From Vicingus serpentipes (GTDB lineage: Bacteria > Bacteroidota > Bacteroidia > Flavobacteriales_E > Vicingaceae), in contig JAGFIT010000057.1 of NCBI GenBank assembly GCA_024103385.1, forward strand, positions 1 through 64,000: 64,000 bases of DNA, given 5' to 3'. Shown here one piece after another: positions 6,845 to 60,915 of this stretch. The notes below the pieces were generated by a model. That model worked only from the letters and a program-made list of their open reading frames with translations, had not been told where the DNA came from and made no database searches. Position 1 is the stretch's first letter. Each line of letters begins with the position of its first letter. Made by a program: the position numbers and the translations under genes.

Positions 6845-9800
6845 TTGTATTATTGCCGTAAACTTACCATTAATTTAATTTTGAATATTTTGTCGATAAA
6901 TATCAGAAAATCACTTGTAATTACTTTCCTTTTAAGTTTTGTTACATTTAATAATATCACCTATGCTAATGATTATTATTGGGTAGGTAATAGTGGCAAT
7001 TGGAACGACCCAACTCATTGGTCTAACAGATCTGGTGGGCCTGGAGGTATTGGCGTTCCTTCTCTAAGTGATAATGTCTATATTGATCAAAACTCTTTTA
7101 CAACTAAATCAATTGTAACAATAACCTCTAGTATTTTTTTACATAATTTAACTATAGCAGAAAACATTAAAAATAGTGCTATACAATCAAATACAAACAT
7201 TCATATTTCAGGCAGCATCGATGTTCCTCGTGTTTTTAATAATAAAATAGCGGGTAATATTTATTTAGAATCAACAGCTTCAACAACCCATTTAAACCTT
7301 GGGTTCGGAAACTGGGAAGCCAATTTTTATTTCAAAGGAAATGGAACATATATTCTAAATAGCCCTATACAAAACCCCGAAAAAAGCATTGTATTAGAGA
7401 AAGGAACCCTCGATTTAAACAAAAATGACCTTGTTTGTAAATCGTTTATTTCTAACTCTAATAAAAAAAGAAACATTAAATCTGCTGGTTCCTCAATCAT
7501 AGTATATGATAAATGGATAACCAGTCCATCAAAATTTACACATGATTTTACTTTAAGCTCAATTATTATGGCTAACCCTAGCAAAGATGCTATTAGTAAA
7601 GATGGGGATTCTTTTAATATACAACAGGCAAAAAAACCTAATGACAAAACAATAAATGTAGTGTCCATGCTTGCTGACACAGTTTCCTGCGGTGATGTTT
7701 GTGATGGAATGATTATCGTCAACTTTACAACAACTTGCCCTAATGCATTTGTTTCCTGGACACCTGGAGATCCTCTCGGAGATGACAATGGGACAAACCC
7801 CATTACTACTGGTAGTGACACCATTTTTAATATATGTCCAGGTATAGAGTATAGAGCTACCATTACGAATGATTGTGATGGCGATATTAAATTCCCAAAA
7901 GCGACCGTTGAAGGTCATGGTAGAATTGAAGAAATAGGCCCTGCTTTAATAACCCAACCCACTTGTAAATCAGATTGTGATGGAGCTATAACTACCTTTA
8001 TTGATGGAGCTTCTTTTGCTACTTTATCATACCAATGGACTCCTGGTGCAGTTGGAGATACACTAAGTTTTATTTCTAGTTTATGTGCTGGAAACTACTC
8101 TGTGCAAGTTTTAGATGGTTTTGGCTGTGACACTACCTTTGTTTATTTTGTTGGTGAACCTGACAGTGTTAGAGCTAATTTAACTGTTACTGATGTTACT
8201 TGTTTTGGTACTTGTTCTGGTAGTATTACCTCTAACCCTATTGGAGGTAATGGCCCTTATACTTTTCAATGGTTTCCTAGTGGAGCAACAACTCCTAGCA
8301 TAAACAATTTATGTAACGGATCCATAGATTCTGTAGTAGTTACAGATGCTCAAGGATGCACAGGAGACACTGTTGTTACTATATCTACTGTTCCCCAGTT
8401 ACAAGTAGATACTATCTTACAACATGTTAGTTGTGGAGGTGTCTGCGATGGAGAAATTACCGCAACTGTATTGAGTGGAGGAACAGCCCCTTTTACGCAT
8501 AACTGGAGTACAAGCCAAGTGGACGTGGGAAACGTATCAACTATTACCGCTCTTTGTGCTGGAGTTTACACGGATTCTATTGTTGATGCCAATGGTTGTG
8601 ATACAGTAATTACATTTACTATTACTGAACCTGTAACACTTATTACTACAAGTACAACAACCAACGTAACCTGTTTTAATGCTTGTGACGGAACAGCCAA
8701 AACAGTTCCTTCTGGAGGAACAGCTCCTTATTTATATAACTGGGTATCCATACCTCCAGGAGGAGTAAGTACTGGACAAGGTACTGATTCTATTTCGGAC
8801 CTATGCCCTGCACAATACATTGTAAATATTACTGATTTTCAGGGCTGTACAAGAGCAGATACTGTAACCATTACTGAACCTGCTTTATTGATAGCCAACC
8901 CTGATTCAACTAACACTTCTTGTGCTTCCGTTTGTGATGGCTCTGTGACGGCTAACCCTACAGGTGGAACAGCACCATACACTTATTTATGGACTGGTCC
9001 AGGAGGTCCGTACAATGCACAGTCACCAAACAGTTTATGCGCTGGAACTTATATTATTACCGTTAGCGATTCTGCTGGGAGATGTACTGTAATAGATAGT
9101 ACAACAGTTATTGAACCTTCATTATTAGTATTAAATATGTCTTCCACTGATATGTCGTGTAATGGTGTATGTGATGGAACTGCAGATGTAATAGTAAGTG
9201 GCGGAACACTCCCTTATAATTATAATTGGGTTTCTGTTCCTGGAGGGTTGGTTGGTCCTGGACAGGGAACAAGTAACATTACCAGTTTATGCGCTGGAAC
9301 ATTTACTGTAAATATTACAGATGGACAAGGATGTACTGCAAATAATAGTGCTATCGTTAACGAACCAGTTTCTATTTCTGCTAATTTAACTTCCTCTGAT
9401 GTAAATTGTTTTGGTAATTGCACTGGTACTGCTACTGTAACACCTGCTGGAGGTAATCCTCCGTATAGGGTGAGTTGGAATGGCGGTGGATTTATCCCTG
9501 TTGTCGGTTCTGAAACAATTACAGGGTTATGTGCAGGACCGCAAACAGCAATTGTTGAGGACAACAACAATTGCCAGACAGTAGTTAATTTTAACATCTC
9601 TGAACCCCCGTTACTAACAACTAGCACTAATGGAACCCCTCTTACATGTAATAATGTTTGTAGTGGTACAGCTACAACCTCTCCAGCAGGAGGAACTGCT
9701 CCTTACTCATACCTTTGGAGTACAGGTGGAATAAGTAATTCAGTAAACAGTCTCTGTGCTGGTACTTATGGCGTTACTATTACTGATGACTCATCATGTG

Positions 9801-12800
9801 TTGTCATAGATAGTGTTACCATTACTGAACCGGTTGCTATAGACCCTAATGCTCAATCTTCTAATATTACTTGTAATGGTGATAATAATGGTACAGCTAT
9901 AGCACTACCAATCGGTGGAACCCCCCCTTATATTTCAATTGTTTGGACAACCATAGGTGGAGCCCCAGTTTTACCTGCGGGAAACCCTGTAAGTGGATTA
10001 AGTGCAGGACAATATGTAGTTGCTGTTACTGATATTAATGGATGCCAAGGGCTAGATACCGTAACGATTACTGAACCGCTACCTTTAACTGTTAATGCTA
10101 ATTCTACCAATGCAAGTTGTGGAACTATTTGTGATGGAGAAATTACTGCTGTACCTGCAGGCGGAGCTCTCTCCTACACTTATCAATGGGATGATCCAGC
10201 TGCACAAACAACCGCGATAGCAAGCAATTTATGTGCTGGGATATATACTGTTACTGTTACTGATACTAACGGATGTGTTGCTACAGATTCTGATACGGTG
10301 AATAATTTAGTTACTATAGTGATTAATACAGGAGCCGTAAATAATGGCTGTAACAGCATTTGTGATGGTTTAGCAGTAGCTACTCCTGGTGGAGGAGCTG
10401 TTCCTTATACTTTTTTATGGGATGATCCAGCAACACAAACTACTGATACTGCTTTTAACCTCTGTCAAGGATGGGTTCGCGTAACTGTTACAGATAACAA
10501 TGGGTGTGCATCTCAAGATTCTACACTGGTACCCGCAGCTCCAAATGTATTTCAGTTGCAATCTACCTTTACAGACGTTACATGTAATGCTCAATGTACT
10601 GGTACAGCGACAATTAATCCCACAGGAGGAATTCCTCCTTATCGTTTCTTGTGGTCGAATGGAGATACAACTAACACAACAATAAACAACTTATGTGCAG
10701 GAGTCTATTGGGTTACTGGAACTGATAGTATTAATTGTCAAGTTACTGATACTATTGTGATATCAGAACCTGATACAATAAGTCCAAATCCTACAATAAT
10801 AAATGCAGATTGTAACGGTAACAGCACTGGAAGTGTATGTCTTGCTCCAACTGGGGGAACACCAGGTTATACTTATTTATGGGGAGGAGGCTTAGGCACC
10901 AACTCATGCATTAATAATCAACCTGCTGGAACATATACGGTTGCTATAAGTGATACCAACAACTGCACTCGAAATGAAATTTACACCATTTCTGAACCTG
11001 TCCTTTTTTCATCTAATCCTATATCTAGAGACATTAGTTGCTTTGGTTTTAATGATGGAATGGCTGGCATTATTCGGGCTGGAGGAACTGCCCCTTTTAC
11101 CTGCTCATGGAATACTGGAGCAACTACTGATACTATATTCAATTTAGCTCCGGGACCTTATTCGGTAATTTGTGTAGACAATAATGGCTGTACCACTACC
11201 CAGAATATCACCATTAACGAACCTCCTTTATTAGATGCAAATGTTTCAGGAACATCTATAGCTTGTGGTGGAAGCACATGTACAGGAACTGCTCTATCTA
11301 ATCCAACAGGAGGAACCCCTGGGTTTACTTATCAATGGTCAACAAGTGCCGGTCCATTTGCCACAACCTCAAGTATTTCAAATTTATGTGAAGATACCTT
11401 TAATATTGTTGTTACTGACACTAATGGTTGTACTGCAAATGGTACTTATATTGTTACTACCCCGACTGTTTTAGCAGTAACTTTAGACAGTACAAATATA
11501 ACTTGTAACAATGCAAATAACGGTACTGCTACAGCTACTCCTATTGGAGGAACTCCTCCATACTCTTATTCATGGGTTGGTGGTTGTTTAGCTACTCCAG
11601 ACACTAGTGCAAACATAGTAGGGCTCTGTTCAGGAACGTATACTGTAACAGTAACGGATTCTTTTGGTTGCTTCTTTATTGGTTCTGTTAATATTATAAA
11701 CCCTCCTTTAATAAATGATAACGAAACGATAACCATGGCTAATTGTGGTGTTTGCGATGGAGTAATCGCAATGGCTCCAACAGGAGGAACTCCTCCTTAT
11801 TCCCATTCGTGGTCTAATGGAGCTTCTACCCCAACAATAACTGCTTTATGTGCTGGATTTTATACCGATACTATTACCGATTTCAATAACTGTGTTGGTG
11901 TTTTCACTATAGCAGTTAGTAATCCAACTGGACCTTCTGGTGTAACAACAACTGTAAATAGTGCAAAATGTTATAACGGTTGTGATGGAGGATTAAATGT
12001 AATTCCTATTGGAGGAACATCCCCATACACCTATTCTTGGTCAGGGCCAAATGGACCACATCCAAATGATAGTACATTAACTGGATTGTGCCAAGGCACC
12101 TATAATCTTACTTTAGAAGATTTCGCAAATTGTATTTTTGCTACTAGTATTATCGTTAATCAAAACGATAGTATTACAGAAAATGCATCCTCAAAAAATA
12201 CTTCTTGTAGTGGAATTTGTAATGGAACCGCAAGTGTCGCTCCATCAGGAGGAACCGCTCCTTACAGTTACTTATGGTCTGATGGGTCAACAGGTTCTTC
12301 TGTTTCTGGATTATGTATTGGATTAACCAGCGTAACTATTACCGATTTTAACGGTTGTACAAAAGTAGTTGATTTTAATATCACAAGTCCTAATGTTTTA
12401 ACTTTATCTTCATCAACTACTGATGCGCTTTGTAATGGTGGTTGTAGTGGAACGGCAACTGTTACTCCTCTAGGAGGGACTGCTCCTTACAATTACCAAT
12501 GGAATGATCCTCTAGCACAAACAACACAAACAGCAAATGGCTTATGTGTAGGCACTTATATTGTTACTGTTAACGATTTTAATGGTTGTTCCGCTAATGA
12601 TACCGTAACCATCAATGAGCCTTCTTCTATTACTCCTAATGAAACAACAACTCTTGCTAGTTGCGGCAACAATGATGGAACAGCAGCATTAGCACCTAGC
12701 GGTGGGACTCCAGGATATACTTACAACTGGCCTACTCTTGGTGTAACTATTCCTAATCCAACTGGACTAGCAGCTGGAAGTTATCCTGTTGAAATTACTG

Positions 12801-15800
12801 ACAATAATGGATGCATGCAATCTTTCTTAATCGTAATAAATAATACTAGTGGTCCTACAGTTACAACAACATCCAACAATGCCAATTGCAATGGGGTATG
12901 TGATGGTGACGCTTCTGTAACTGTAACCTCAGGAGCTCCAAGTTATTCATATTTATGGAGTAATGGGCAAACTACAAGTGCTGTTTCCGGTTTATGTGCA
13001 GGAAATTATACTGTTCAAGTAACAGATGGCAATGGGTGTGTTACAGTTACGCCTATTACAATAAGCGATAATACATCCATTACAGCATCTATAAATACTA
13101 TCGATGCTACTTGTAACGGATTTTGTGATGGATCAGCATTAGTAGTCCCTTCAGGAGGAGTTCCTCCTTATTCTTACAGCTGGAGCACTGGTCATACCAT
13201 TAACGCTGTTGCTGGATTATGTGCAGGCAACCATACCGTAACTATAACTGATGCTGTTGGTTGCTCAAGTATTGAAAATGTTACTATTGGAGAATCAGGA
13301 ACTCTAACAATCAATGTAACAGGAAATAATGCTCGTTGTAATGGCGGAAATGATGGGTCTGCTACTGTAACTCCATCTGGAGGAGCATCACCTTACGCTT
13401 ATTTATGGTCAAATAATTTAACTACCAAAACTATTGTAGGATTAACCGCTGGAACCTATTCTGTAGTAGTTACTGATGTTAATGGTTGTTCTGCAAATGG
13501 AAGTGTAATAATAGGTGAAGGAAGTATTATAAATACCACTATTGCTGTGACAGATGCTACTTGTGGGATATGTGATGGCGATGCTACTGCTGCTGCACCA
13601 ACTGGTGGGTCTGGTGGTGCTTACACTTATTCATGGCTACCAGGAGGACAAACTACTCCAAACATCAGTAATTTGTGTCCAGGAGCATATAGTCTTGATG
13701 TTACAGACAATGCTGGTTGCTCCCAAACATTTAATGTTTTAATCAGTAATCCTAATGGCCCAACTGTTACTACACTTTCAGATAGCGTAACTTGTTATGG
13801 CTCATGTGATGGATTAGCATGGACGATGGTTAATGCAGGAAACCCTCCTTATTCTTACCAATGGGATGATCCTTTATTAACTACAAATGATTCTGCGTCA
13901 TCACTTTGTGGCGGATTTTATAATGTTGTTATCCAAGATAGTTTAGGGTGTATTACCGTAGATTCTACTACTGTATTAGAACCTCAAGAAATTTTAGCAA
14001 ATATTACTTTCACCAATCCAACATGTACGGGTGTTTGTGATGGTACTGCCACTGTAAACCCAACTGGCGGAATTGGAGCATTAACTTTCTTATGGGGAGA
14101 TGGACAGACAACACCTACTGCTAGTGGACTTTGTGCAGGAACACATACTGTAACTGTAACTGATGGAAACGGTTGTTCTATTATCGATAGTGTTGTATTG
14201 ACAGACCCTAATTCAATAACTATAACTATAAGCGCGACATCTCCTACTTGTAATGGTGATTGTGACGCAACAGCTTTAGCAACAGCTTCTGGAGGAACAC
14301 CAGGATATACTTATTCGTGGAACACTGCCCCCTCTCAAACTAATTCTTTAGCTACTGGTCTATGTGCGGGAACATATATAGTTACTGTAACCGACAATAA
14401 TCTTTGTTCTGATACTGCTAGCGTTATTATAGTAAATCCTGCTGTATTATCAACTTCTTCTATTGTTACAGATGCAAGTTGTAATGCAGTGTGTGATGGA
14501 CAAATAACAACTACTCCTGCTGGAGGCGTTGCTCCTTATAGTTATATTTGGAGTACTTCTCCGATACAAACAACCGCAACAGCAACTGGCTTATGTACTG
14601 GCTCTTACTATGTAACTGTTATTGATGCTAACAACTGTAGTGTCAATGATACGGTAATTGTAAATGAACCAACCATCTTAAATGATTCTACAACGGTTTC
14701 TGGACCAACTTGTGGAGTATGTGATGGAAGTGCAACATCTACTCCTGTTGGTGGAGTTGGTCCATTCGATTTTACTTGGACTGATCCTTTAGGTGCTAAC
14801 CCTTCATTACCTTTCACTACTTTAGGGCAACCTAGTTCAACCGTAGTTGGTTTATGTGCTGGAACAGTCAATTTACAGATTACTGATTTAGGAGCAGGTT
14901 GTATTTCTAACTATACCATAATTGTGAATAGTGCTACAGGACCTAGTATTTCAATTACCTCAACTAATGAGACGTGTATTGGGTCGTGTGATGGAACTGC
15001 TAATGCTAGTGCTAGTGGTGGATTTCCTCCTTATTTATTTGCATGGAGTCCAACGGCTCCTCTAATTACTGATTCTACTGCTACTGGTTTGTGTGCTAAT
15101 TTTTACACTGTTACTGTTTTAGATTCGTTAGGGTGTGTTTCATCTGATACAGTTACCATTACTACACAGGGATTAAATTTAAGTATTGCAGGAATTATTC
15201 CCGAAAGTTGTTTTGGTGATTGTGATGGTAGTGCTACTGTTGTTAACTCATCAGGAACAGCTCCTTTTACTTATTCATGGTCTCCAACTAACCCTATACA
15301 AACAACAGCTACTGCTGCCGGTCTCTGTGTCGGTTTATATGTTGCCACAGTAACTGATGCTTTATCATGTAGTGATTCTATTAGTACAAACATTACAGGT
15401 CCTTCTCTATTAACTGTATCTGCCAATCTCAATAACCCTATCAGTTGTAACGGGGTTTGTGATGGAGCTGCAATTGCAACACCAGTGGGCGGTACAGCTC
15501 CTTATACGTATTCTTGGGATGACCCATTAGGACAAACTACTCAAATAGCAACAGGTTTATGTGCAGGAACATACATCGTTACCGTAACCGATAACAATTC
15601 TTGTACAGCATACGACACCATTGTAATTACACAACCTGCAGCAGTATTAGCCAACGAAGTACTTACATTGCCTGCTTGTAATGTTTGTAATGGGATTATT
15701 ACTCTAAACCCAACAGGGGGAGTTGGTCCTTTTACTTTCTTGTGGACTACTCCTTCAAGCCCACCTAATCCAGTAACCAGTAGTATAAATAATTTATGTG

Positions 15801-17311
15801 CAGGAGCATATTTTGTAGATGTTACTGATGTAGGTACTGGTTGTGTAACTACTTTCAATTTCCCACTCAACAACTCTAATGCTCCTATTCCTACCACAAC
15901 TGCTACTAACGTAAGTTGTAATGGATTCTGTGATGGAAAAATTACATCAACTATAGCAGGTGGGACACCTCCTCTTACTTATGCATGGAACCCAACAGGG
16001 CAAACGGCTGATTCTGCTGTTGCTTTATGTGCTGGATTATACACCCTCACAGTTACAGATAACTTAGGTTGTATTGGTGTTGCTATTGATACTGTATCAG
16101 AACCTAATGTGCTTCAAGCTACTATGAATTTTAGTAATATTAGTTGTAACGGATTGAGTGATGGATGGGTAGCCGCCAACCCAATTGGAGGTTCTGCTCC
16201 ATACCTATATTCTTGGTCTCCAGGGCTACAAACAACTGATTCTATCACCAATCTTATAGCTGGAAAATACATCGTAAATATTACTGATAGTAATAATTGT
16301 TCAGTAATAGATAGTGTTACATTAATTGAACCTACTGCTATCGTTTCTTCTATTATTTCTCAAACAGACGTAAGCTGTTCTTCTAATTGTGATGGAGATG
16401 CAAGCATTAGTGTTTCTGGAGGTTCAGGAACCTATACTTACCAATGGAATGGAAATACCACCCCTGGACAATTACCTTCATTAAGCAACATGTGTTTTGG
16501 ACAGAATAGAGTTTTAATAACCGATATGACCGGCTGTAGTATTACAGATACTATAGATATAGGAGCTATTATTACTGTACTTGCTGATGCAGGAAATGAC
16601 ACTACAATATGTGAAGGTACTAGCATAGATTTAACTGGTGTTCCTACTGGAATAATAACAGGAGTAGAATGGTTTCAATTACCAGGAATGATTTCAATTG
16701 GAATAACCGACACTATATTATCAGTTTCTCCTCCTGGTGTAGGAACTACATGTTATGTTTATCAAGTAACTGGAGGTTGCGTAGTCAATGACACTATCTG
16801 TATTACAACCAATGCATTACCTGTAGCTAATGCTGGAAAAGACGAGACTATTTTTGAAAATAGCAACACCACTCTCAATGGATCTGGAGGAGGACTTTAT
16901 TCTTGGTCTCCTGGAAGTAGTTTAAATGATTCTACTATTGCTAATCCTATAGCTTCTCCAAAAACAACAACTCAATATATTGTGATGGTAACTTCTGCTA
17001 CAGGTTGTGTTTCCTACGATACGGTCTTAGTTACTGTTCTTCCAAAAATTAAATTTCCTGATGGAATTACTCCTAACGGAGATGGAAAAAATGATGTATG
17101 GGTAATTGACTTTATAGAAGAATTCCCTGGAAATGTTGTAGAGATTTATAACCGATGGGGTGAATTATTATTCCACGCTGATGGATATTTACAAAATTGG
17201 GATGGAACATACAATGGAAAAGAGTTACCTATTGGAACGTATTATTATATAATTGATTTAAACAGCGATTTAGTAAAACCATTTACAGGTCCAATAACTA
17301 TTTTAAGATAA
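6845..17311 (+). CDS. Giant SprB-repeat adhesin with gliding/type IX C-terminal domain
   Basis: A surface protein of about 3,470-3,488 residues. The frame has no ATG near its start. TTG is possible at 6845, 6881 or 6890; the last gives a compact signal peptide (SINIRKSLVITFLL...ITYA). A YYWVGNSGNWNDPTHWS domain follows, then 38 SprB repeats of 70-90 residues (about residues 281-3230), then two Ig/PKD-like domains (AGNDTTICEG, AGKDETIFEN). The last ~90 residues form the gliding-motility-associated C-terminal domain (FPDGITPNGDGKNDVW...NRWGELLF), a type B sorting signal for type IX secretion. SprB of Flavobacterium johnsoniae is a mobile adhesin of gliding; this protein may be one, or a static adhesin. 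The sprF-like partner follows after 8 bases. Confidence 0.9.
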   Translation: MYYCRKLTINLILNILSINIRKSLVITFLLSFVTFNNITYANDYYWVGNSGNWNDPTHWSNRSGGPGGIGVPSLSDNVYIDQNSFTTKSIVTITSSIFLHNLTIAENIKNSAIQSNTNIHISGSIDVPRVFNNKIAGNIYLESTASTTHLNLGFGNWEANFYFKGNGTYILNSPIQNPEKSIVLEKGTLDLNKNDLVCKSFISNSNKKRNIKSAGSSIIVYDKWITSPSKFTHDFTLSSIIMANPSKDAISKDGDSFNIQQAKKPNDKTINVVSMLADTVSCGDVCDGMIIVNFTTTCPNAFVSWTPGDPLGDDNGTNPITTGSDTIFNICPGIEYRATITNDCDGDIKFPKATVEGHGRIEEIGPALITQPTCKSDCDGAITTFIDGASFATLSYQWTPGAVGDTLSFISSLCAGNYSVQVLDGFGCDTTFVYFVGEPDSVRANLTVTDVTCFGTCSGSITSNPIGGNGPYTFQWFPSGATTPSINNLCNGSIDSVVVTDAQGCTGDTVVTISTVPQLQVDTILQHVSCGGVCDGEITATVLSGGTAPFTHNWSTSQVDVGNVSTITALCAGVYTDSIVDANGCDTVITFTITEPVTLITTSTTTNVTCFNACDGTAKTVPSGGTAPYLYNWVSIPPGGVSTGQGTDSISDLCPAQYIVNITDFQGCTRADTVTITEPALLIANPDSTNTSCASVCDGSVTANPTGGTAPYTYLWTGPGGPYNAQSPNSLCAGTYIITVSDSAGRCTVIDSTTVIEPSLLVLNMSSTDMSCNGVCDGTADVIVSGGTLPYNYNWVSVPGGLVGPGQGTSNITSLCAGTFTVNITDGQGCTANNSAIVNEPVSISANLTSSDVNCFGNCTGTATVTPAGGNPPYRVSWNGGGFIPVVGSETITGLCAGPQTAIVEDNNNCQTVVNFNISEPPLLTTSTNGTPLTCNNVCSGTATTSPAGGTAPYSYLWSTGGISNSVNSLCAGTYGVTITDDSSCVVIDSVTITEPVAIDPNAQSSNITCNGDNNGTAIALPIGGTPPYISIVWTTIGGAPVLPAGNPVSGLSAGQYVVAVTDINGCQGLDTVTITEPLPLTVNANSTNASCGTICDGEITAVPAGGALSYTYQWDDPAAQTTAIASNLCAGIYTVTVTDTNGCVATDSDTVNNLVTIVINTGAVNNGCNSICDGLAVATPGGGAVPYTFLWDDPATQTTDTAFNLCQGWVRVTVTDNNGCASQDSTLVPAAPNVFQLQSTFTDVTCNAQCTGTATINPTGGIPPYRFLWSNGDTTNTTINNLCAGVYWVTGTDSINCQVTDTIVISEPDTISPNPTIINADCNGNSTGSVCLAPTGGTPGYTYLWGGGLGTNSCINNQPAGTYTVAISDTNNCTRNEIYTISEPVLFSSNPISRDISCFGFNDGMAGIIRAGGTAPFTCSWNTGATTDTIFNLAPGPYSVICVDNNGCTTTQNITINEPPLLDANVSGTSIACGGSTCTGTALSNPTGGTPGFTYQWSTSAGPFATTSSISNLCEDTFNIVVTDTNGCTANGTYIVTTPTVLAVTLDSTNITCNNANNGTATATPIGGTPPYSYSWVGGCLATPDTSANIVGLCSGTYTVTVTDSFGCFFIGSVNIINPPLINDNETITMANCGVCDGVIAMAPTGGTPPYSHSWSNGASTPTITALCAGFYTDTITDFNNCVGVFTIAVSNPTGPSGVTTTVNSAKCYNGCDGGLNVIPIGGTSPYTYSWSGPNGPHPNDSTLTGLCQGTYNLTLEDFANCIFATSIIVNQNDSITENASSKNTSCSGICNGTASVAPSGGTAPYSYLWSDGSTGSSVSGLCIGLTSVTITDFNGCTKVVDFNITSPNVLTLSSSTTDALCNGGCSGTATVTPLGGTAPYNYQWNDPLAQTTQTANGLCVGTYIVTVNDFNGCSANDTVTINEPSSITPNETTTLASCGNNDGTAALAPSGGTPGYTYNWPTLGVTIPNPTGLAAGSYPVEITDNNGCMQSFLIVINNTSGPTVTTTSNNANCNGVCDGDASVTVTSGAPSYSYLWSNGQTTSAVSGLCAGNYTVQVTDGNGCVTVTPITISDNTSITASINTIDATCNGFCDGSALVVPSGGVPPYSYSWSTGHTINAVAGLCAGNHTVTITDAVGCSSIENVTIGESGTLTINVTGNNARCNGGNDGSATVTPSGGASPYAYLWSNNLTTKTIVGLTAGTYSVVVTDVNGCSANGSVIIGEGSIINTTIAVTDATCGICDGDATAAAPTGGSGGAYTYSWLPGGQTTPNISNLCPGAYSLDVTDNAGCSQTFNVLISNPNGPTVTTLSDSVTCYGSCDGLAWTMVNAGNPPYSYQWDDPLLTTNDSASSLCGGFYNVVIQDSLGCITVDSTTVLEPQEILANITFTNPTCTGVCDGTATVNPTGGIGALTFLWGDGQTTPTASGLCAGTHTVTVTDGNGCSIIDSVVLTDPNSITITISATSPTCNGDCDATALATASGGTPGYTYSWNTAPSQTNSLATGLCAGTYIVTVTDNNLCSDTASVIIVNPAVLSTSSIVTDASCNAVCDGQITTTPAGGVAPYSYIWSTSPIQTTATATGLCTGSYYVTVIDANNCSVNDTVIVNEPTILNDSTTVSGPTCGVCDGSATSTPVGGVGPFDFTWTDPLGANPSLPFTTLGQPSSTVVGLCAGTVNLQITDLGAGCISNYTIIVNSATGPSISITSTNETCIGSCDGTANASASGGFPPYLFAWSPTAPLITDSTATGLCANFYTVTVLDSLGCVSSDTVTITTQGLNLSIAGIIPESCFGDCDGSATVVNSSGTAPFTYSWSPTNPIQTTATAAGLCVGLYVATVTDALSCSDSISTNITGPSLLTVSANLNNPISCNGVCDGAAIATPVGGTAPYTYSWDDPLGQTTQIATGLCAGTYIVTVTDNNSCTAYDTIVITQPAAVLANEVLTLPACNVCNGIITLNPTGGVGPFTFLWTTPSSPPNPVTSSINNLCAGAYFVDVTDVGTGCVTTFNFPLNNSNAPIPTTTATNVSCNGFCDGKITSTIAGGTPPLTYAWNPTGQTADSAVALCAGLYTLTVTDNLGCIGVAIDTVSEPNVLQATMNFSNISCNGLSDGWVAANPIGGSAPYLYSWSPGLQTTDSITNLIAGKYIVNITDSNNCSVIDSVTLIEPTAIVSSIISQTDVSCSSNCDGDASISVSGGSGTYTYQWNGNTTPGQLPSLSNMCFGQNRVLITDMTGCSITDTIDIGAIITVLADAGNDTTICEGTSIDLTGVPTGIITGVEWFQLPGMISIGITDTILSVSPPGVGTTCYVYQVTGGCVVNDTICITTNALPVANAGKDETIFENSNTTLNGSGGGLYSWSPGSSLNDSTIANPIASPKTTTQYIVMVTSATGCVSYDTVLVTVLPKIKFPDGITPNGDGKNDVWVIDFIEEFPGNVVEIYNRWGELLFHADGYLQNWDGTYNGKELPIGTYYYIIDLNSDLVKPFTGPITILR
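7680..16540 (+). repeat. 38 SprB-type repeats inside the adhesin gene
   Basis: Repeat units of about 165-260 bases, read by eye. Consensus features in order: C1 in CNGxCDG (C2 at the second Cys), G-T-A-T-V, PxGGTxPYxYxW, a variable loop, LCAG (C3) with TYxVTVTD, and NGC (C4), followed by a short linker. C1 and C4 occur in every unit. C2 and C3 both occur in 31 units and are both absent from units 10, 14, 15, 22, 25 and 37. Unit 17 keeps C3 only and has an extra Cys. From 11.7 kb on, every fourth or fifth unit is a short-motif type (CGVCDG or similar) with a GP-containing linker. Homology of the units is clear in protein but blurred in DNA, so the array is old. Confidence 0.92.
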
Positions 17312-17319
17312 TTGCATAT

Positions 17320-18243
17320 ATGAAAAAATTATTAGTCATAGGCTTTTTTATATTGGGCGGGGGGTTATTATTTGCTCAACAATTACCTCATTTTAGTCAA
17401 TACTACTTAAATGATTATTTGATTAACCCTGCTGTTGCGGGTAGCAGAAATTATTTCGAAGGTAAATCTGCCCATCGTTATCAATGGGAAGGAATTACGG
17501 ATGCCCCTAGAACATATACATTAAGCGTTAATGGTCCTACAAAAAATTTAAAAATGGGACTAGGAGGATATTTATTTACGGATATTGTTGGTCCTACGAG
17601 GAGGACAGGCTTTAACCTTTCTTATGCTTATCATCTTAAATTAAACGAATCATTGAAGCTCTCACTAGGATTATCTGCAGGTCTACTGCAATTTACGATT
17701 GATGCATCAAAAATTACTTTACGTGATCAGGATGATGCTATTTTAACCGGAGGTGTACAGTCAGAACTAAAACCTGATGCTGGGTTTGGATTATATCTTT
17801 ACCATAAAAAGTATTATTTTGGTTTTTCTGCTCCACAACTCTTAAATAGTAGAGTGAAATTTTTTAAAGAAGGTGAAAATCCTGTAGGAACCTTACCAGC
17901 TCATTTTTTCCTTACAGCTGGATATAAGTTTCAGGTTGCTGATGATGTTGTTATTGAACCTTCCACTTTTGTAAAGTATGTTAGCCCCGCGCCTCTTCAA
18001 ATTGAAGGGACATTACGAGCAATATACAAAGAAAAAGTATGGATATCTGGAACCTATAGGACATTAGACGCAATTACTGTTTCAGCAGGTTATTTAATCA
18101 ACAATAATTTTACAATAGCATATGCTTATGACTTTACTACTACTAATTTGAAAAATTATAGTACTGGAACTCATGAGTTTCTTGTAGGAATTCGTTTTTA
18201 TAAATCTACAAGCAAAGAAAAAGATGCTCCTAAAATAGATTAG
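17320..18243 (+). CDS. PorP/SprF-family type IX secretion outer-membrane protein
   Basis: A 307-residue protein with signal peptide (residues 1-19, ending LLFAQ) and a predicted outer-membrane beta barrel. The mature start QQLPHFSQYYLNDYLINPAVAGS is the PorP/SprF family hallmark. In F. johnsoniae SprF is encoded just after SprB and is needed to place SprB on the surface. Here the gene follows the SprB-like gene by 8 bases, so the pair is a dedicated adhesin-partner module and probably one transcript. Its stop codon (18241-18243) overlaps the stop of the convergent gene (18240-18242), leaving no room for a terminator between them. Confidence 0.9.
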   Translation: MKKLLVIGFFILGGGLLFAQQLPHFSQYYLNDYLINPAVAGSRNYFEGKSAHRYQWEGITDAPRTYTLSVNGPTKNLKMGLGGYLFTDIVGPTRRTGFNLSYAYHLKLNESLKLSLGLSAGLLQFTIDASKITLRDQDDAILTGGVQSELKPDAGFGLYLYHKKYYFGFSAPQLLNSRVKFFKEGENPVGTLPAHFFLTAGYKFQVADDVVIEPSTFVKYVSPAPLQIEGTLRAIYKEKVWISGTYRTLDAITVSAGYLINNNFTIAYAYDFTTTNLKNYSTGTHEFLVGIRFYKSTSKEKDAPKID

Positions 18244-55848: not shown

Positions 55849-58800
55849 TTATCGAAACAAATACATCTTACCAAAACCTTTCTTAAAATAAGAATCCATA
55901 CTGGTTGATCTTAATTCAATATCATCATTATCAATTTTGGTAATCACCCGATATAAATATAGCCCATTTGCTAAACGATCCCCATATGTATCTGTCCCAT
56001 CCCAAGCAAATTCCGAAATATTTTTTCCTATATGAATCATTCCTATTTCATCTTTATTAATCTCTCTCACCACTCTTCCTGTAATCGTCATGATTTGTAT
56101 TTTAAAAATATCAGGCACTGTACGACCTGTTAACGTAAATACAAACCGAGTAGAAGTACTAAAAGGATTAGGATAATTAATAATATTGGTAATGGTAGAT
56201 TTATTGATAACTTCAAAACCAATAAGATAATCATAGGTTCCTGACATATTTTTAGATCTATCTGAGGCCTGTACTCTCAACTTATATCTTCCGTCCTCTA
56301 TGAAATTGGCTTTGTATATAATTCGAGAGCTATTTTTAGGTAAAGATGCAGGAATAAATTGCATGGTTTCTGCTCCTGTGGATGAATAGAAATAAATTCT
56401 TTTTTCTTGCCCATTAGGATGAGTGATGTAAACCGTATAATCAGCAGTATCATTTAACGCTAAAAACAAGTTTTCATCTGTTAATTCAATCACTATTTCT
56501 GATACTGGAGAAACAATATCTCCATCCAAAATATGTCTTCCATCAAAAGTTACATCAAGAATAGGATTTATTTTATCTTCATGTACATAGAAAGAAATTT
56601 CAGCTAAATTATTAAAATGATATTTTTCCAATTGATCTTTGTTAGGATTAACCTCAACCAACAGGCTATTTAATCCTCCCATTCCTGCCGTAGAAAACTG
56701 AATAGTTGCGATCAAAACACTATCTGCAAGTAATGGTTTCTGTCTTGGATAAAATAACGACTGCAACCCTTGATTTTGAGTCAATACAGAAAAAGCAATC
56801 AACAAACTATCCATATCGTATCGGCTAATGTTTTTAACAGCAATAGACAATGTAATCGTTTCTCCTTCTTGAACGGTATCATTACTTAAATAAAAATAGA
56901 TTTTGGGATCTAATGCTGCTTCTGGAATTCCTTCATAGGTAATTTGCCACCTGTCCAATTGTGGTGCCGTAAACAAAGAATCATCACTTAAAAATGCATT
57001 TAGTTTTAAGTAAGGGTAAATGGCCGCATCTACGCGCCCTGTGATACGAATATCCCCAGAATCTGTTGGCAAGTTATTAATCAATAACGTTTCATTTCCA
57101 CTCTCATCTACTCCATATACATTAAGCACCGTACTATCTTTTGTAGTAGGGTATTCTAATGGATTAACCCTCCAAGATAAAGAATCCCAGCCTTTCGCTG
57201 GACCTAGTATTTCTGAATAAATATTGGCATAATTGGCATTGGTAGAAATAGTAGTAGAAAGTAATAAATTTTTGTGTTGAATAGAATCCCCTATTACTTC
57301 TATTGCTGAAGAAGATATTCCTTTCTTTGCGTAAAATAAAAATGGAACACTATCTGCTACCGTTGGTAATGATACTGCTCCCAAGTTTGATAAAGAAGTC
57401 CTTAACCCCACAGGCATTGGAACATATCCTGGAAAAGTTTGAAAATACCATGTCCAAATTAAAATGTGGTTACCATTTGGAATACTATCATTTAACATGT
57501 TTTCTAAAGCAGTCATTTGTGCAGGACTATTCTTTCTAAACATAAAGAAATGCTCTGTTGCTGCATTATTGTATATCGGTAAGTTATTGGCATGCCCCAT
57601 ATTGGGGTAATCGTTAGCCGACCAAGGTTTTAACGTTAATGAATCTAATACTGCCACATGTAAAGAACTAGTAGTCCCCCAGCCATTTTTTCCTTGTCTA
57701 TCAGCATCTATATAATAAGCTATCTTATTTAATTCACTCCATCCTGCAGCACCATAAGTAATTCCTTTTAATTGTTTTACGTTAGGTACAAAATTAAATT
57801 TCCTTGTTGGTCTATTGTGTTGAATAAATTGAAATTCATCATTTTCAAATTGAAAAAAATGATCTTGTTGCCAACCCTCCTTCCCATTAATATATTGAAA
57901 AGATCGCTGTCTCCATCTAAAGCCAGTCGCATCCACAGAGTCTTTACTCACTCTCCAAAAAAACACTGTACTATCTGGTATGGATTGAAGTAAATTAGGA
58001 GTCCATGTGACTATTCCTCCAGAAGAGCTCACCGTAGTTGCTTCCTTTGATGGACTATTAAAATAGTCTGTAGTATCTATTTCGAATACATAATTCTTAG
58101 AAGGTTCAAATGGAAATGCTGTAGAAGCAGTTAATGTTATTCCTTGGTTAGGAACTATTTCAAACTCATAAGGATAAATAGGAATAATTTCTCCTGATTG
58201 TATACTCAATGTTTTAAGTACTGTATTGTTATTTTCCCATAATTCATCCACTTGATTAATTGCATCAACTGTAATTGAGAATGTGTTCAACCCTAATCCT
58301 CTTATAACATCAACAGGCAAGGTAAAAGAAATCACTTCTTGGTAATTCGTTGCTTTAAATTCTTTGATGTATGTCGTGTCGGGAAATAGATTATCTGGAA
58401 AACCTCTATTTAATTCCATTATAATAGAATCATTAACTGCATAACCAAAATTGGTTACTAAAATATTAACATCAAATGAATCGATATCCGATGTAATTAC
58501 TGGTGGGGAAAAAGTAACAGTAGGACTTTCTATCATAAAATCAGGTTTATCAAAAGTATTAAAGGCTAAAGAAGGGTCTCCATGAAAAGTCATAGAAAGA
58601 GCTGTACTATTGATGTATTCATTTGATCCTCCTCCCTGAATGCTAATGATCGTTTTTCTCATATGTTCACCTATGCTTCCTTTATAATTCAATGCCGCTA
58701 AATTTTCATAAAACCTCTTCGCATAAGTCACCAAATAAGCTTCTATACCCAAATCTACTGAAGCTAAGAAACCTATTACCCCTTTATCATTTAATAAAAC

Positions 58801-60915
58801 ATGTTCTTCACTTGTACTATTGGCTGACGATAAATGAATATCTCCCGCAAAACAAGCCAACCCCATAATCACTGGATATTTGCCATTCTGATTAGGCCAA
58901 ATGGATGGGTCATCAATATTTTGGTCAAAACCACCAGTTGCAGAAGCATGCCCTAAAAACGTCATTAAAGCAACTCCATCTGCTATATATTGTTTTATCG
59001 AATCTGATAAAACACTCTGAATAGGCGCTGAAGAATTCTTCTGGAATGAATGAACGTTTCCTCCAAAAAGTGTATCCTCTACTATATTTTCTAACTGCTT
59101 TAAACTATTTACAAACTGTTGCGATTGCTGTGCATCTGTCCCTCCTGCAAAATGAAGAACTTGTTTCATCCAATCATTTATTCCTGTTCCTGTTGAAAAT
59201 GATGGATTCTCGTGTTGAATGATTTTATTCAAATACCAATCTACTTCGGCACCATGTAATGCTGCTATTCTTCCTGTGGGGACAATTGGTTCATTAATAG
59301 TTCCATTTAAGCCTGCTGTTAACATATTATCTGATGCAGGAATTCCATAAGACGGAACTAAATTGTTTGCAAAATTGGAAACATCTTTTCTTGACTCATT
59401 GGCTTTAATTGATTTTCCCAGTAAAAACAAATACTTTGGTGAAGTAGGCCATGTATCCACAATATAATCCATAAATCCTCTTATCGCGTGAGGATGTTTC
59501 TCTATTCCATAAGCAAATTGATCATATAGCTCATTTATATTAAAAACAATAGCATTTTGAGGATTATTCCCTGCCACAGGATTTAATCGATAAGCAGCAT
59601 AAGCATTTGCTTCTACCATTAAACTTGGATGAGTAACAATAATAAAAGCGGTATCCAAAAAAGCAGCCGAATAATCCATAAACGTTCCCGTTCCGTTTAC
59701 AGGAACTATAGTGTTCACATTTTTAACTTGCCCTTCAGACGTAATAAAACACTCTTTTGTAGCACCTGTGTTAGGTATTAAACAATTGTAATTGGATCCG
59801 GCATCAATAACCTGTATTCTTCTTCCTGAAGTCAACTCATAAAACAAAACACTCCCTGAAGCATTAAAATTAGTAAAGCTCAGATATGATTTAGCTTCAC
59901 TTGGGTGATCATTTAAAAACATCTGGCTAAAGGCTGTCTTGTTCTCTAAATCTGTTGTATGTGGATAATTAATTTTTAAGTGAGCTATTGTTTGTCGGTC
60001 AGCTCCAGTGCCTAAATCATTCACAATTTGAAAAGTAACATCAGTTGTATTTGTTCCTATATCCAATATTGGAATATCCAGTTGAATATCAATTTTTTTA
60101 TACCCTTCAAAAATAGTGTCTAGCACATTAGAGGCAACATTAACTTGCAAATGATGGTCTCCAGATGTCAATATCGCATAATTAGATTCTCCCAACACTG
60201 TTGCACTTAGTGTAGCATTTCCTGCTAATAAATAAGCATTTTTTGTATTCAAACTCTTTGTTTTGAATGTTGGAAACCATGGGCTACTTACATCAAAATA
60301 ATTGTCAAACCATCCTTCAGTTGGGTCGTAACCAAAATTAACACCTCCTACTGAGTTAATTTTTCCATCATAGTAATTAGAAAAAAAGTATTGCAACTCC
60401 TCTTTATAAAAATAGTCTATAGGAGTATATAACGAAAAATTAGTATCGTTCTCAATAGTTAATCGTTGATTAGCAATAGATGAATTCCATGTTAAATAAT
60501 AATAAATAGTATCATTAATTAAGCTGTAATAAGGGTTGGGTTGGTTAGCAACCCCGCCATAAAACTGACTTTCAAACCATCCATCATTCTTTTCCCCATA
60601 GAATTCTATAAAATCACTACCATCAAATACCCCATCTCCTTCTCCTTCAACACGAATAGGAATTTCAACTCCTCTAGCAAATAATTGAAAGTTTTGAGGA
60701 TCAATAGTAGACAAAGGAATACCTGCATTGGATAAAGTGGCAGAATCTATTCTATAGACACCCGTTTCTGAAATTTGAAATTTATAATATTGTTGAGAAT
60801 AATTTATCCAACTGTTATTATAAGGTTGAGCAAAAGTAAACAACCCCATCCCTACAAAAAAAGTGAACAAAAATTGCCTCTTAATTATTCTTATTATTTT
60901 ATTAAAATTTATCAC
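55849..60915 (-). CDS. PorU-like C25 protease, putative second type IX sortase (PorU2 type)
   Basis: A 1,688-residue exported protein (signal peptide 1-29, ending FTFAQ). The N-terminal domain (~40-330) has the PorU-type start YKFQISETGVYRIDSATL. The gingipain (C25) domain lies at about 420-780 with catalytic H656 (FLGHASATGG) and C688 (GLACFAGD). Beta domains follow, including a CARDB-like segment near 1390, and a FlgD-like or type IX-like tail (IINYPNPFSTSTRF ... DRLANGLYLYRVI). PorU cleaves cargo C-terminal domains and links them to a lipid or sugar. This one is longer than classical PorU (~1,150 residues) and lies after a PorV-like gene, as in the PorU2/PorV2 pairs. It could instead be a dedicated protease. 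Confidence 0.82.
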   Translation of the reverse strand: MINFNKIIRIIKRQFLFTFFVGMGLFTFAQPYNNSWINYSQQYYKFQISETGVYRIDSATLSNAGIPLSTIDPQNFQLFARGVEIPIRVEGEGDGVFDGSDFIEFYGEKNDGWFESQFYGGVANQPNPYYSLINDTIYYYLTWNSSIANQRLTIENDTNFSLYTPIDYFYKEELQYFFSNYYDGKINSVGGVNFGYDPTEGWFDNYFDVSSPWFPTFKTKSLNTKNAYLLAGNATLSATVLGESNYAILTSGDHHLQVNVASNVLDTIFEGYKKIDIQLDIPILDIGTNTTDVTFQIVNDLGTGADRQTIAHLKINYPHTTDLENKTAFSQMFLNDHPSEAKSYLSFTNFNASGSVLFYELTSGRRIQVIDAGSNYNCLIPNTGATKECFITSEGQVKNVNTIVPVNGTGTFMDYSAAFLDTAFIIVTHPSLMVEANAYAAYRLNPVAGNNPQNAIVFNINELYDQFAYGIEKHPHAIRGFMDYIVDTWPTSPKYLFLLGKSIKANESRKDVSNFANNLVPSYGIPASDNMLTAGLNGTINEPIVPTGRIAALHGAEVDWYLNKIIQHENPSFSTGTGINDWMKQVLHFAGGTDAQQSQQFVNSLKQLENIVEDTLFGGNVHSFQKNSSAPIQSVLSDSIKQYIADGVALMTFLGHASATGGFDQNIDDPSIWPNQNGKYPVIMGLACFAGDIHLSSANSTSEEHVLLNDKGVIGFLASVDLGIEAYLVTYAKRFYENLAALNYKGSIGEHMRKTIISIQGGGSNEYINSTALSMTFHGDPSLAFNTFDKPDFMIESPTVTFSPPVITSDIDSFDVNILVTNFGYAVNDSIIMELNRGFPDNLFPDTTYIKEFKATNYQEVISFTLPVDVIRGLGLNTFSITVDAINQVDELWENNNTVLKTLSIQSGEIIPIYPYEFEIVPNQGITLTASTAFPFEPSKNYVFEIDTTDYFNSPSKEATTVSSSGGIVTWTPNLLQSIPDSTVFFWRVSKDSVDATGFRWRQRSFQYINGKEGWQQDHFFQFENDEFQFIQHNRPTRKFNFVPNVKQLKGITYGAAGWSELNKIAYYIDADRQGKNGWGTTSSLHVAVLDSLTLKPWSANDYPNMGHANNLPIYNNAATEHFFMFRKNSPAQMTALENMLNDSIPNGNHILIWTWYFQTFPGYVPMPVGLRTSLSNLGAVSLPTVADSVPFLFYAKKGISSSAIEVIGDSIQHKNLLLSTTISTNANYANIYSEILGPAKGWDSLSWRVNPLEYPTTKDSTVLNVYGVDESGNETLLINNLPTDSGDIRITGRVDAAIYPYLKLNAFLSDDSLFTAPQLDRWQITYEGIPEAALDPKIYFYLSNDTVQEGETITLSIAVKNISRYDMDSLLIAFSVLTQNQGLQSLFYPRQKPLLADSVLIATIQFSTAGMGGLNSLLVEVNPNKDQLEKYHFNNLAEISFYVHEDKINPILDVTFDGRHILDGDIVSPVSEIVIELTDENLFLALNDTADYTVYITHPNGQEKRIYFYSSTGAETMQFIPASLPKNSSRIIYKANFIEDGRYKLRVQASDRSKNMSGTYDYLIGFEVINKSTITNIINYPNPFSTSTRFVFTLTGRTVPDIFKIQIMTITGRVVREINKDEIGMIHIGKNISEFAWDGTDTYGDRLANGLYLYRVITKIDNDDIELRSTSMDSYFKKGFGKMYLFR

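Follow-up and report, generated by a model that had tools for sequence, protein, structure and literature searches.

A possible disulfide daisy chain through the SprB repeats of a type IX secretion surface protein in Vicingus serpentipes

The window analysed here, a stretch of 64,000 nucleotides of Vicingus serpentipes (contig JAGFIT010000057.1), carries an open reading frame (ORF) whose very long product runs from an export region through 38 SprB repeats and two PKD/immunoglobulin (Ig)-like domains to a type B sorting domain of the type IX secretion system (T9SS), and beside it lies a gene for an outer-membrane protein of the PorP/SprF family (Table 1). Since SprB repeats, a CHU_C/type B sorting domain and a PorP/SprF neighbor occur together, the product is, by its sequence features, a T9SS type B surface protein, and the neighbor is its probable dedicated carrier. 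In this paper, we try to focus on one issue: which cysteines in these repeats pair with which, and do the partners lie in the same repeat? We argue that each repeat has a clasp of its own and that a second bond would staple it to the next repeat, making the array a disulfide daisy chain.

Pfam's SprB family (PF13573) matches the protein with 733.6 bits, above the curated cut-off, in 31 stretches that alignment resolves into 38 units (u01 to u38). A tandem-repeat scan at the DNA level does not detect the array, because its units are only ~40% identical. The first 240 codons of the ORF contain no Met; we keep the TTG start as called, and the true start is uncertain.

Table 1. Features of the repeat protein and its neighbor in the window
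Feature	Position	Strand	Remarks
ORF of the repeat protein	6845..17311	+	3488-aa surface protein; called start TTG
38 tandem SprB-type Ig-like repeats	7652..16552	+	~77 aa each; unit alignment; aa 270 to 3236
u10	9836..10081	+	C2 and C3 both missing
u14	10775..11002	+	B-E strand pair (profile columns 22/46) in place of C2/C3
u15	11003..11227	+	C-F strand pair (columns 34/59) in place of C2/C3
u17	11468..11707	+	C2 gone, C3 kept, extra Cys (GGC) in C-E loop, column about 40
u22	12626..12850	+	C2 and C3 both missing
u25	13301..13525	+	C2 and C3 both missing
u28-u30, the folded triple	13988..14674	+	AlphaFold2
u37	16109..16339	+	C2 and C3 both missing
Two further Ig/PKD-like domains	16553..17047	+	limits approximate
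CHU_C / T9SS type B sorting domain	17048..17299	+	PF13585 91 bits; TIGR04131 70.9 bits vs cut-off 35
PorP/SprF-family outer-membrane protein	17320..18243	+	PF11751 271.5 bits; TIGR03519 285.4 bits

A typical repeat has four cysteines, which we number C1 to C4 in order. A sequence-only reading of the window had listed C1 and C4 in all 38 repeats, C2 and C3 together in 31 and neither in six (u10, u14, u15, u22, u25 and u37), with replacement pairs in u14 and u15 and with u17 lacking C2 while keeping C3 beside an extra cysteine; our unit alignment reproduces that table exactly (Fisher exact p = 2.5e-6 for the joint absence of C2 and C3 in this protein alone). What had been overlooked is an unpaired extra cysteine at aa 298 in u01, which gives that unit five cysteines where every other has exactly two or four. 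The 22/46 replacement of u14 is found in 14 surveyed units, at columns that form a coupled pair, and 18 surveyed units have a 40/51 pair like that of u17, whose C-E loop cysteine is thus the likely partner of C3.

The survey behind these counts consists of two sets. Set A comprises the window protein, the arrays of the same genome and 78 loci found with u28-u30; set B comprises 40 regions from 31 other genomes, picked solely by a PF13573 match. Cysteines in the search words may have biased set A toward cysteine-rich units; set B is free of that bias. Segmentation with a profile built from the window units gave 144 proteins and ~2,650 units (1856 in set A and 795 in set B; L numbers below are our labels for surveyed arrays), and direct-coupling analysis of 2341 unit pairs covered 2628 intra-unit and 5919 inter-unit column pairs. 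Apparent losses of C1 in L010, L011, L015 and L080 are one-column shifts and were recounted leniently. Of 149 sampled Bacteroidia genomes, 133 encode SprB repeats, which belong there to very large surface proteins. The four-cysteine form, which had been thought special, is so only in part: It accounts for 42% of set A and 27% of set B SprB units, in many families, and is common in Bacteroidia rather than unique. One surveyed record, L098 (CP034120.1), bears the title Glaciecola amylolytica, a gammaproteobacterium, yet its SprB protein shares 81% identity, from end to end, with an SprB protein of Fluviicola chungangensis; the record is probably a Bacteroidota genome under a wrong label.

Within a repeat, C2 and C3 come and go together. 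Set A has 784 units with both, 8 with C2 only, 19 with C3 only and 1045 with neither (phi 0.97; agreement in 1829 of 1856), and set B has 213, 2, 1 and 579 (phi 0.99; 792 of 795). This is the covariation test, by profile alignment and in related proteins, that the sequence-only reading had called for. Among nearest-relative units (at least 55% identical), 129 differ at both positions and 12 at one, and several of those 12 have a substitute cysteine. The two columns form the strongest of all intra-unit couplings. Spare cysteines, moreover, are even in number in 2213 of 2273 units (97%, as against 52% expected if they were independent), and many of the spare pairs that lie elsewhere (22/46, 56/70, 23/45, 6/69 and, as in u17, 40/51) occupy sheet neighbors that are coupled in the same analysis; between the window's u18 and its counterpart in L050, such a swap is visible, C2/C3 being lost and a 22/46 pair gained. 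Covariation in two sets, the top coupling, the parity and the relocation of pairs to sheet contacts thus strongly support the bond that had been proposed from 38 repeats, namely a C2–C3 disulfide within one unit, with ~99% agreement over the whole survey. About half of the odd-count units are accounted for by a lone strand F cysteine at column 57, which has no obvious partner in ~31 units of diverse proteins and is perhaps a buried free thiol. A 4336-aa paralogue in the window genome, L009 (C22:10000-27500, minus strand), has 51 SprB units, 50 of them without C2/C3 and only the last with four cysteines.

The outer cysteines behave differently in that their partners appear to sit in different repeats. 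Not one of 2609 units lacks both C1 and C4, though 53 have lost C4 and 62 have lost C1, and the same-unit C1–C4 coupling is nil (z = -0.07). The pair formed by C1 of unit n and C4 of unit n+1 is, by contrast, the first of all the inter-unit couplings: Set A has 1668 junctions with both, 3 with C1 only, 19 with C4 only and 19 with neither, and set B has 729, 0, 4 and 4. Double losses number 23, spread over 10 proteins; the mean of 5000 within-array permutations is 6.5, and none of them reaches 23. Without four alternating arrays, there are 12 double losses against 2.0 expected. In L009, the one unit without C1 and the one without C4 adjoin in the order n, n+1. In all three set A cases where C4 of the next unit is lost and C1 is kept, a new cysteine stands at C1+3 (CYGCQDG, CVGCCNG and CFGCCDG).

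The ends of arrays follow the same direction. A first unit has no predecessor and a last unit no successor, and C4 is missing from 16 of 113 first units (26 of 2305 internal ones; p = 1e-11), just as C1 is missing from 14 of 123 last units (43 of 2290 internal ones; p = 5e-7); the opposite losses, of C1 in first units and C4 in last ones, are not raised over internal units. In the window, the Ig/PKD-like domain that follows u38 has both C1 (TIC) and C4 (GGC), and the last one keeps C4 (TGC) and has no C1 (TIF), which is what a daisy chain predicts for its end. Across the survey, the last PKD-like domain ahead of the sorting signal lacks C1 and keeps C4 in 17 of 17 cases (internal ones lack C1 in 38 of 96), a tally that reflects few independent events because most of these proteins are orthologues of the window protein. 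These patterns suggest that C1 of one unit pairs with C4 of the next, so that the outer bond would join neighbors and not the two sides of a single unit.

Does the fold allow it? AlphaFold2, applied to u28-u30 together with 36 triples of window units, returned a mean predicted local distance difference test (pLDDT) of 96.3 and a predicted template modeling score (pTM) of 0.70, and with Foldseek, it identifies a tandem Ig-like antiparallel beta sandwich. The predicted strand order is A, B, C, E, F, G, the A-B turn holding C1 and C2, the E-F turn C3 and the F-G turn C4. We judged the proximity of cysteines from this strand order and from the coupling register: Couplings set strand A parallel to G with a register of 62-65 columns, which places C1 (column 13) beside column 75-76, ten strand G residues from C4 (column 65). 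The rise along a strand is usually 3.3 Å per residue, and the two outer cysteines of one unit would therefore be roughly 30 Å apart, at what the model makes opposite ends of the domain. A domain in a tandem Ig array directs its A-B and E-F turns at its successor and its F-G turn at its predecessor, so the geometry suits a C2–C3 bond inside the unit and a C1–C4 bond across the junction.

Several observations weigh against stapled junctions. The reverse relation, C4 of unit n with C1 of unit n+1, is also coupled (z 12.8), with joint losses that fall to chance without the four alternating arrays. Two arrays, L090 and L100, hold many units that have C4 without a preceding C1; L090 has a linker cysteine instead, and the model does not account for L100. 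Couplings between the A-B turn and the loops of the next domain exceed the background and do not exceed the mirrored block (p = 0.2), and we do not lean on them, as they are not directional. Because many of the arrays are relatives of one another, not every count stands for an independent event. The window genome (97% complete) has no match to DsbB, VKOR or Thioredoxin_4 and only one to DSBA. As to the irregular arrays themselves, every second unit of L100 (about aa 1158-2090) lacks C1 and the next unit keeps C4, and two or more of the units without C1 have an extra strand F cysteine (EYCVT). In L092, L125 and L143, units with only C1 alternate with units with only C4, and staples there would tie units together two by two, not into one continuous chain.

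Other ways to bond the same cysteines have to be weighed against this. The sequence-only reading had pictured a unit doubly cross-linked, with an outer C1–C4 bond around the inner C2–C3 one. Its inner half is well supported, and C1 and C4 do stand together in every window unit, yet two internal bonds per repeat are very improbable given the nil coupling of C1 with C4 in one unit, the absence of double losses, the first and last units that lose just one of the two and the length of strand G that separates them; C1 would pair with C4 of the next unit instead. Or C1 might be bonded to C2 in a short loop and C3 to C4. Only 3-4 residues separate C1 from C2, and the cysteine at C1+3 that appears when the next unit lacks C4 makes local pairing of C1 a possible fallback, but joint loss of C2 and C3 would then strand C1 and C4 in hundreds of C--C units, and the couplings give C2–C3 and the junction pair instead, which leaves this arrangement scarcely credible.

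The outer cysteines could also bond different molecules in a bundle, with covariation mirroring the register between chains, and it is true that the entries for GhpA, the closest relative with a solved structure, describe an assembly of many chains (56 chains, 8 entries). The relation we find, however, is to the next unit of the same chain, with effects at the ends of that chain, and ordinary tandem Ig geometry yields the pairing without a partner chain; we consider interchain bonds highly unlikely. A last view, in which the conserved cysteines bind metal or stay as free thiols and their pattern is a record of duplication, draws on the fact that units are related by duplication and that neighboring units share their C2–C3 state (phi 0.58 in set A). 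It is barely tenable, however, in the face of pairs that move together to sheet contacts (22/46, 56/70, 23/45 and 6/69), of the 97% even parity and of joint changes between close homologues.

That leaves the daisy chain, to which we assign a probability of about 0.88: a T9SS-exported adhesin or filament with a C2–C3 clasp in its repeats and a staple from C1 to the next C4 at every junction. The data show that the cysteines covary and in which direction, what happens at array ends, the even parity and the order of the strands; that the pairs are actual disulfides is what we infer. Inside a repeat, the clasp would link the A-B and E-F turns and would be optional, lost whole or exchanged for another cross-strand pair. 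The staple would run from C1 of repeat n, in the A-B turn at the C-terminal end of its domain, to C4 of repeat n+1, in the F-G turn at the N-terminal end. With a staple at every junction, the array would be one covalently continuous chain, stopping at the C1-less domain before the sorting signal. We estimate ~74 bonds (37 array junctions, 2 to the last Ig-like domain, 31 C2–C3, 3 replacement pairs in u14, u15 and u17, and 1 probable additional pair in the domain that follows u38), close to the "about 70" first suggested. The likely effect, we infer, is mechanical: What would otherwise be a floppy string of domains would become a stiff rod able to withstand pulling, proteases and unfolding.

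It seems quite likely to us that the same holds for T9SS Ig-like arrays of the Bacteroidia in general (SprB repeats with their neighboring PKD-like domains), the staple being conserved, the C2–C3 bond optional and breaks in the chain marked by joint loss of both staple halves. Such a rule would account for the near-universal outer cysteines and predict which end domain drops which cysteine. It also raises a question: How, whether ahead of T9SS export or after it, are dozens of long-range disulfides correctly formed when most of the genomes have no VKOR (it is present in 8 of the 149 sampled Bacteroidia genomes)? It is well established that tandem Ig arrays can have internal disulfides. In the open literature, searched for disulfides of SprB repeats and for disulfides between domains of bacterial Ig arrays and not including the GhpA paper, we found no description for these repeats, and as far as that literature shows, a junction staple throughout these abundant repeats is undescribed.

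How, then, does the window protein compare with known systems? SprB of Flavobacterium johnsoniae (PF13573) has the same repeat family, a T9SS type B sorting domain and an adjoining PorP/SprF carrier, and relatives act in gliding and predation. In F. johnsoniae, the motile adhesin SprB is linked to GldK by way of SprF, which is itself bonded to GldK through a twin-Cys (Cys-X-Cys) tail (PMC12635249). The window's carrier has zero cysteines and hence no twin-Cys tail of the SprF–GldK kind; without the Cys-X-Cys C-terminal tail that goes with the SprB gliding adhesin, we do not class the window protein as the gliding adhesin itself. This cysteine-free PorP/SprF-family carrier gene is one of 14 such genes in the genome, and farther along the window (55849-60915, minus strand) is encoded a 1688-aa PorU2-type T9SS sortase-like protein (NF052324, 737.5 bits).

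The best match by sequence in the Protein Data Bank (PDB) is GhpA, the grappling hook of Aureispira sp. CCB-QB1 (PDB 9flp, 9fls, 9flw and 9fly; E 2.9e-32 in a profile search), and its entry 9flw is also the best Foldseek match of u28-u30 (E 6.5e-9, TMq 0.50). GhpA domains in the alignment have cysteines at C1-like (ICEG) and C4-like (NGC) sites, although they are PKD/Ig-like instead of SprB repeats and show no C2–C3 pattern in the portion of the alignment inspected. The stapling rule can be checked directly in deposited structures, and the junction staple may already be visible in those of GhpA. Gram-positive adhesins and pili, too, have tandem Ig-like domains with cross-links (isopeptide bonds) against pulling. 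Theirs are amide bonds within domains, whereas the key bond proposed here is a disulfide between neighbors.
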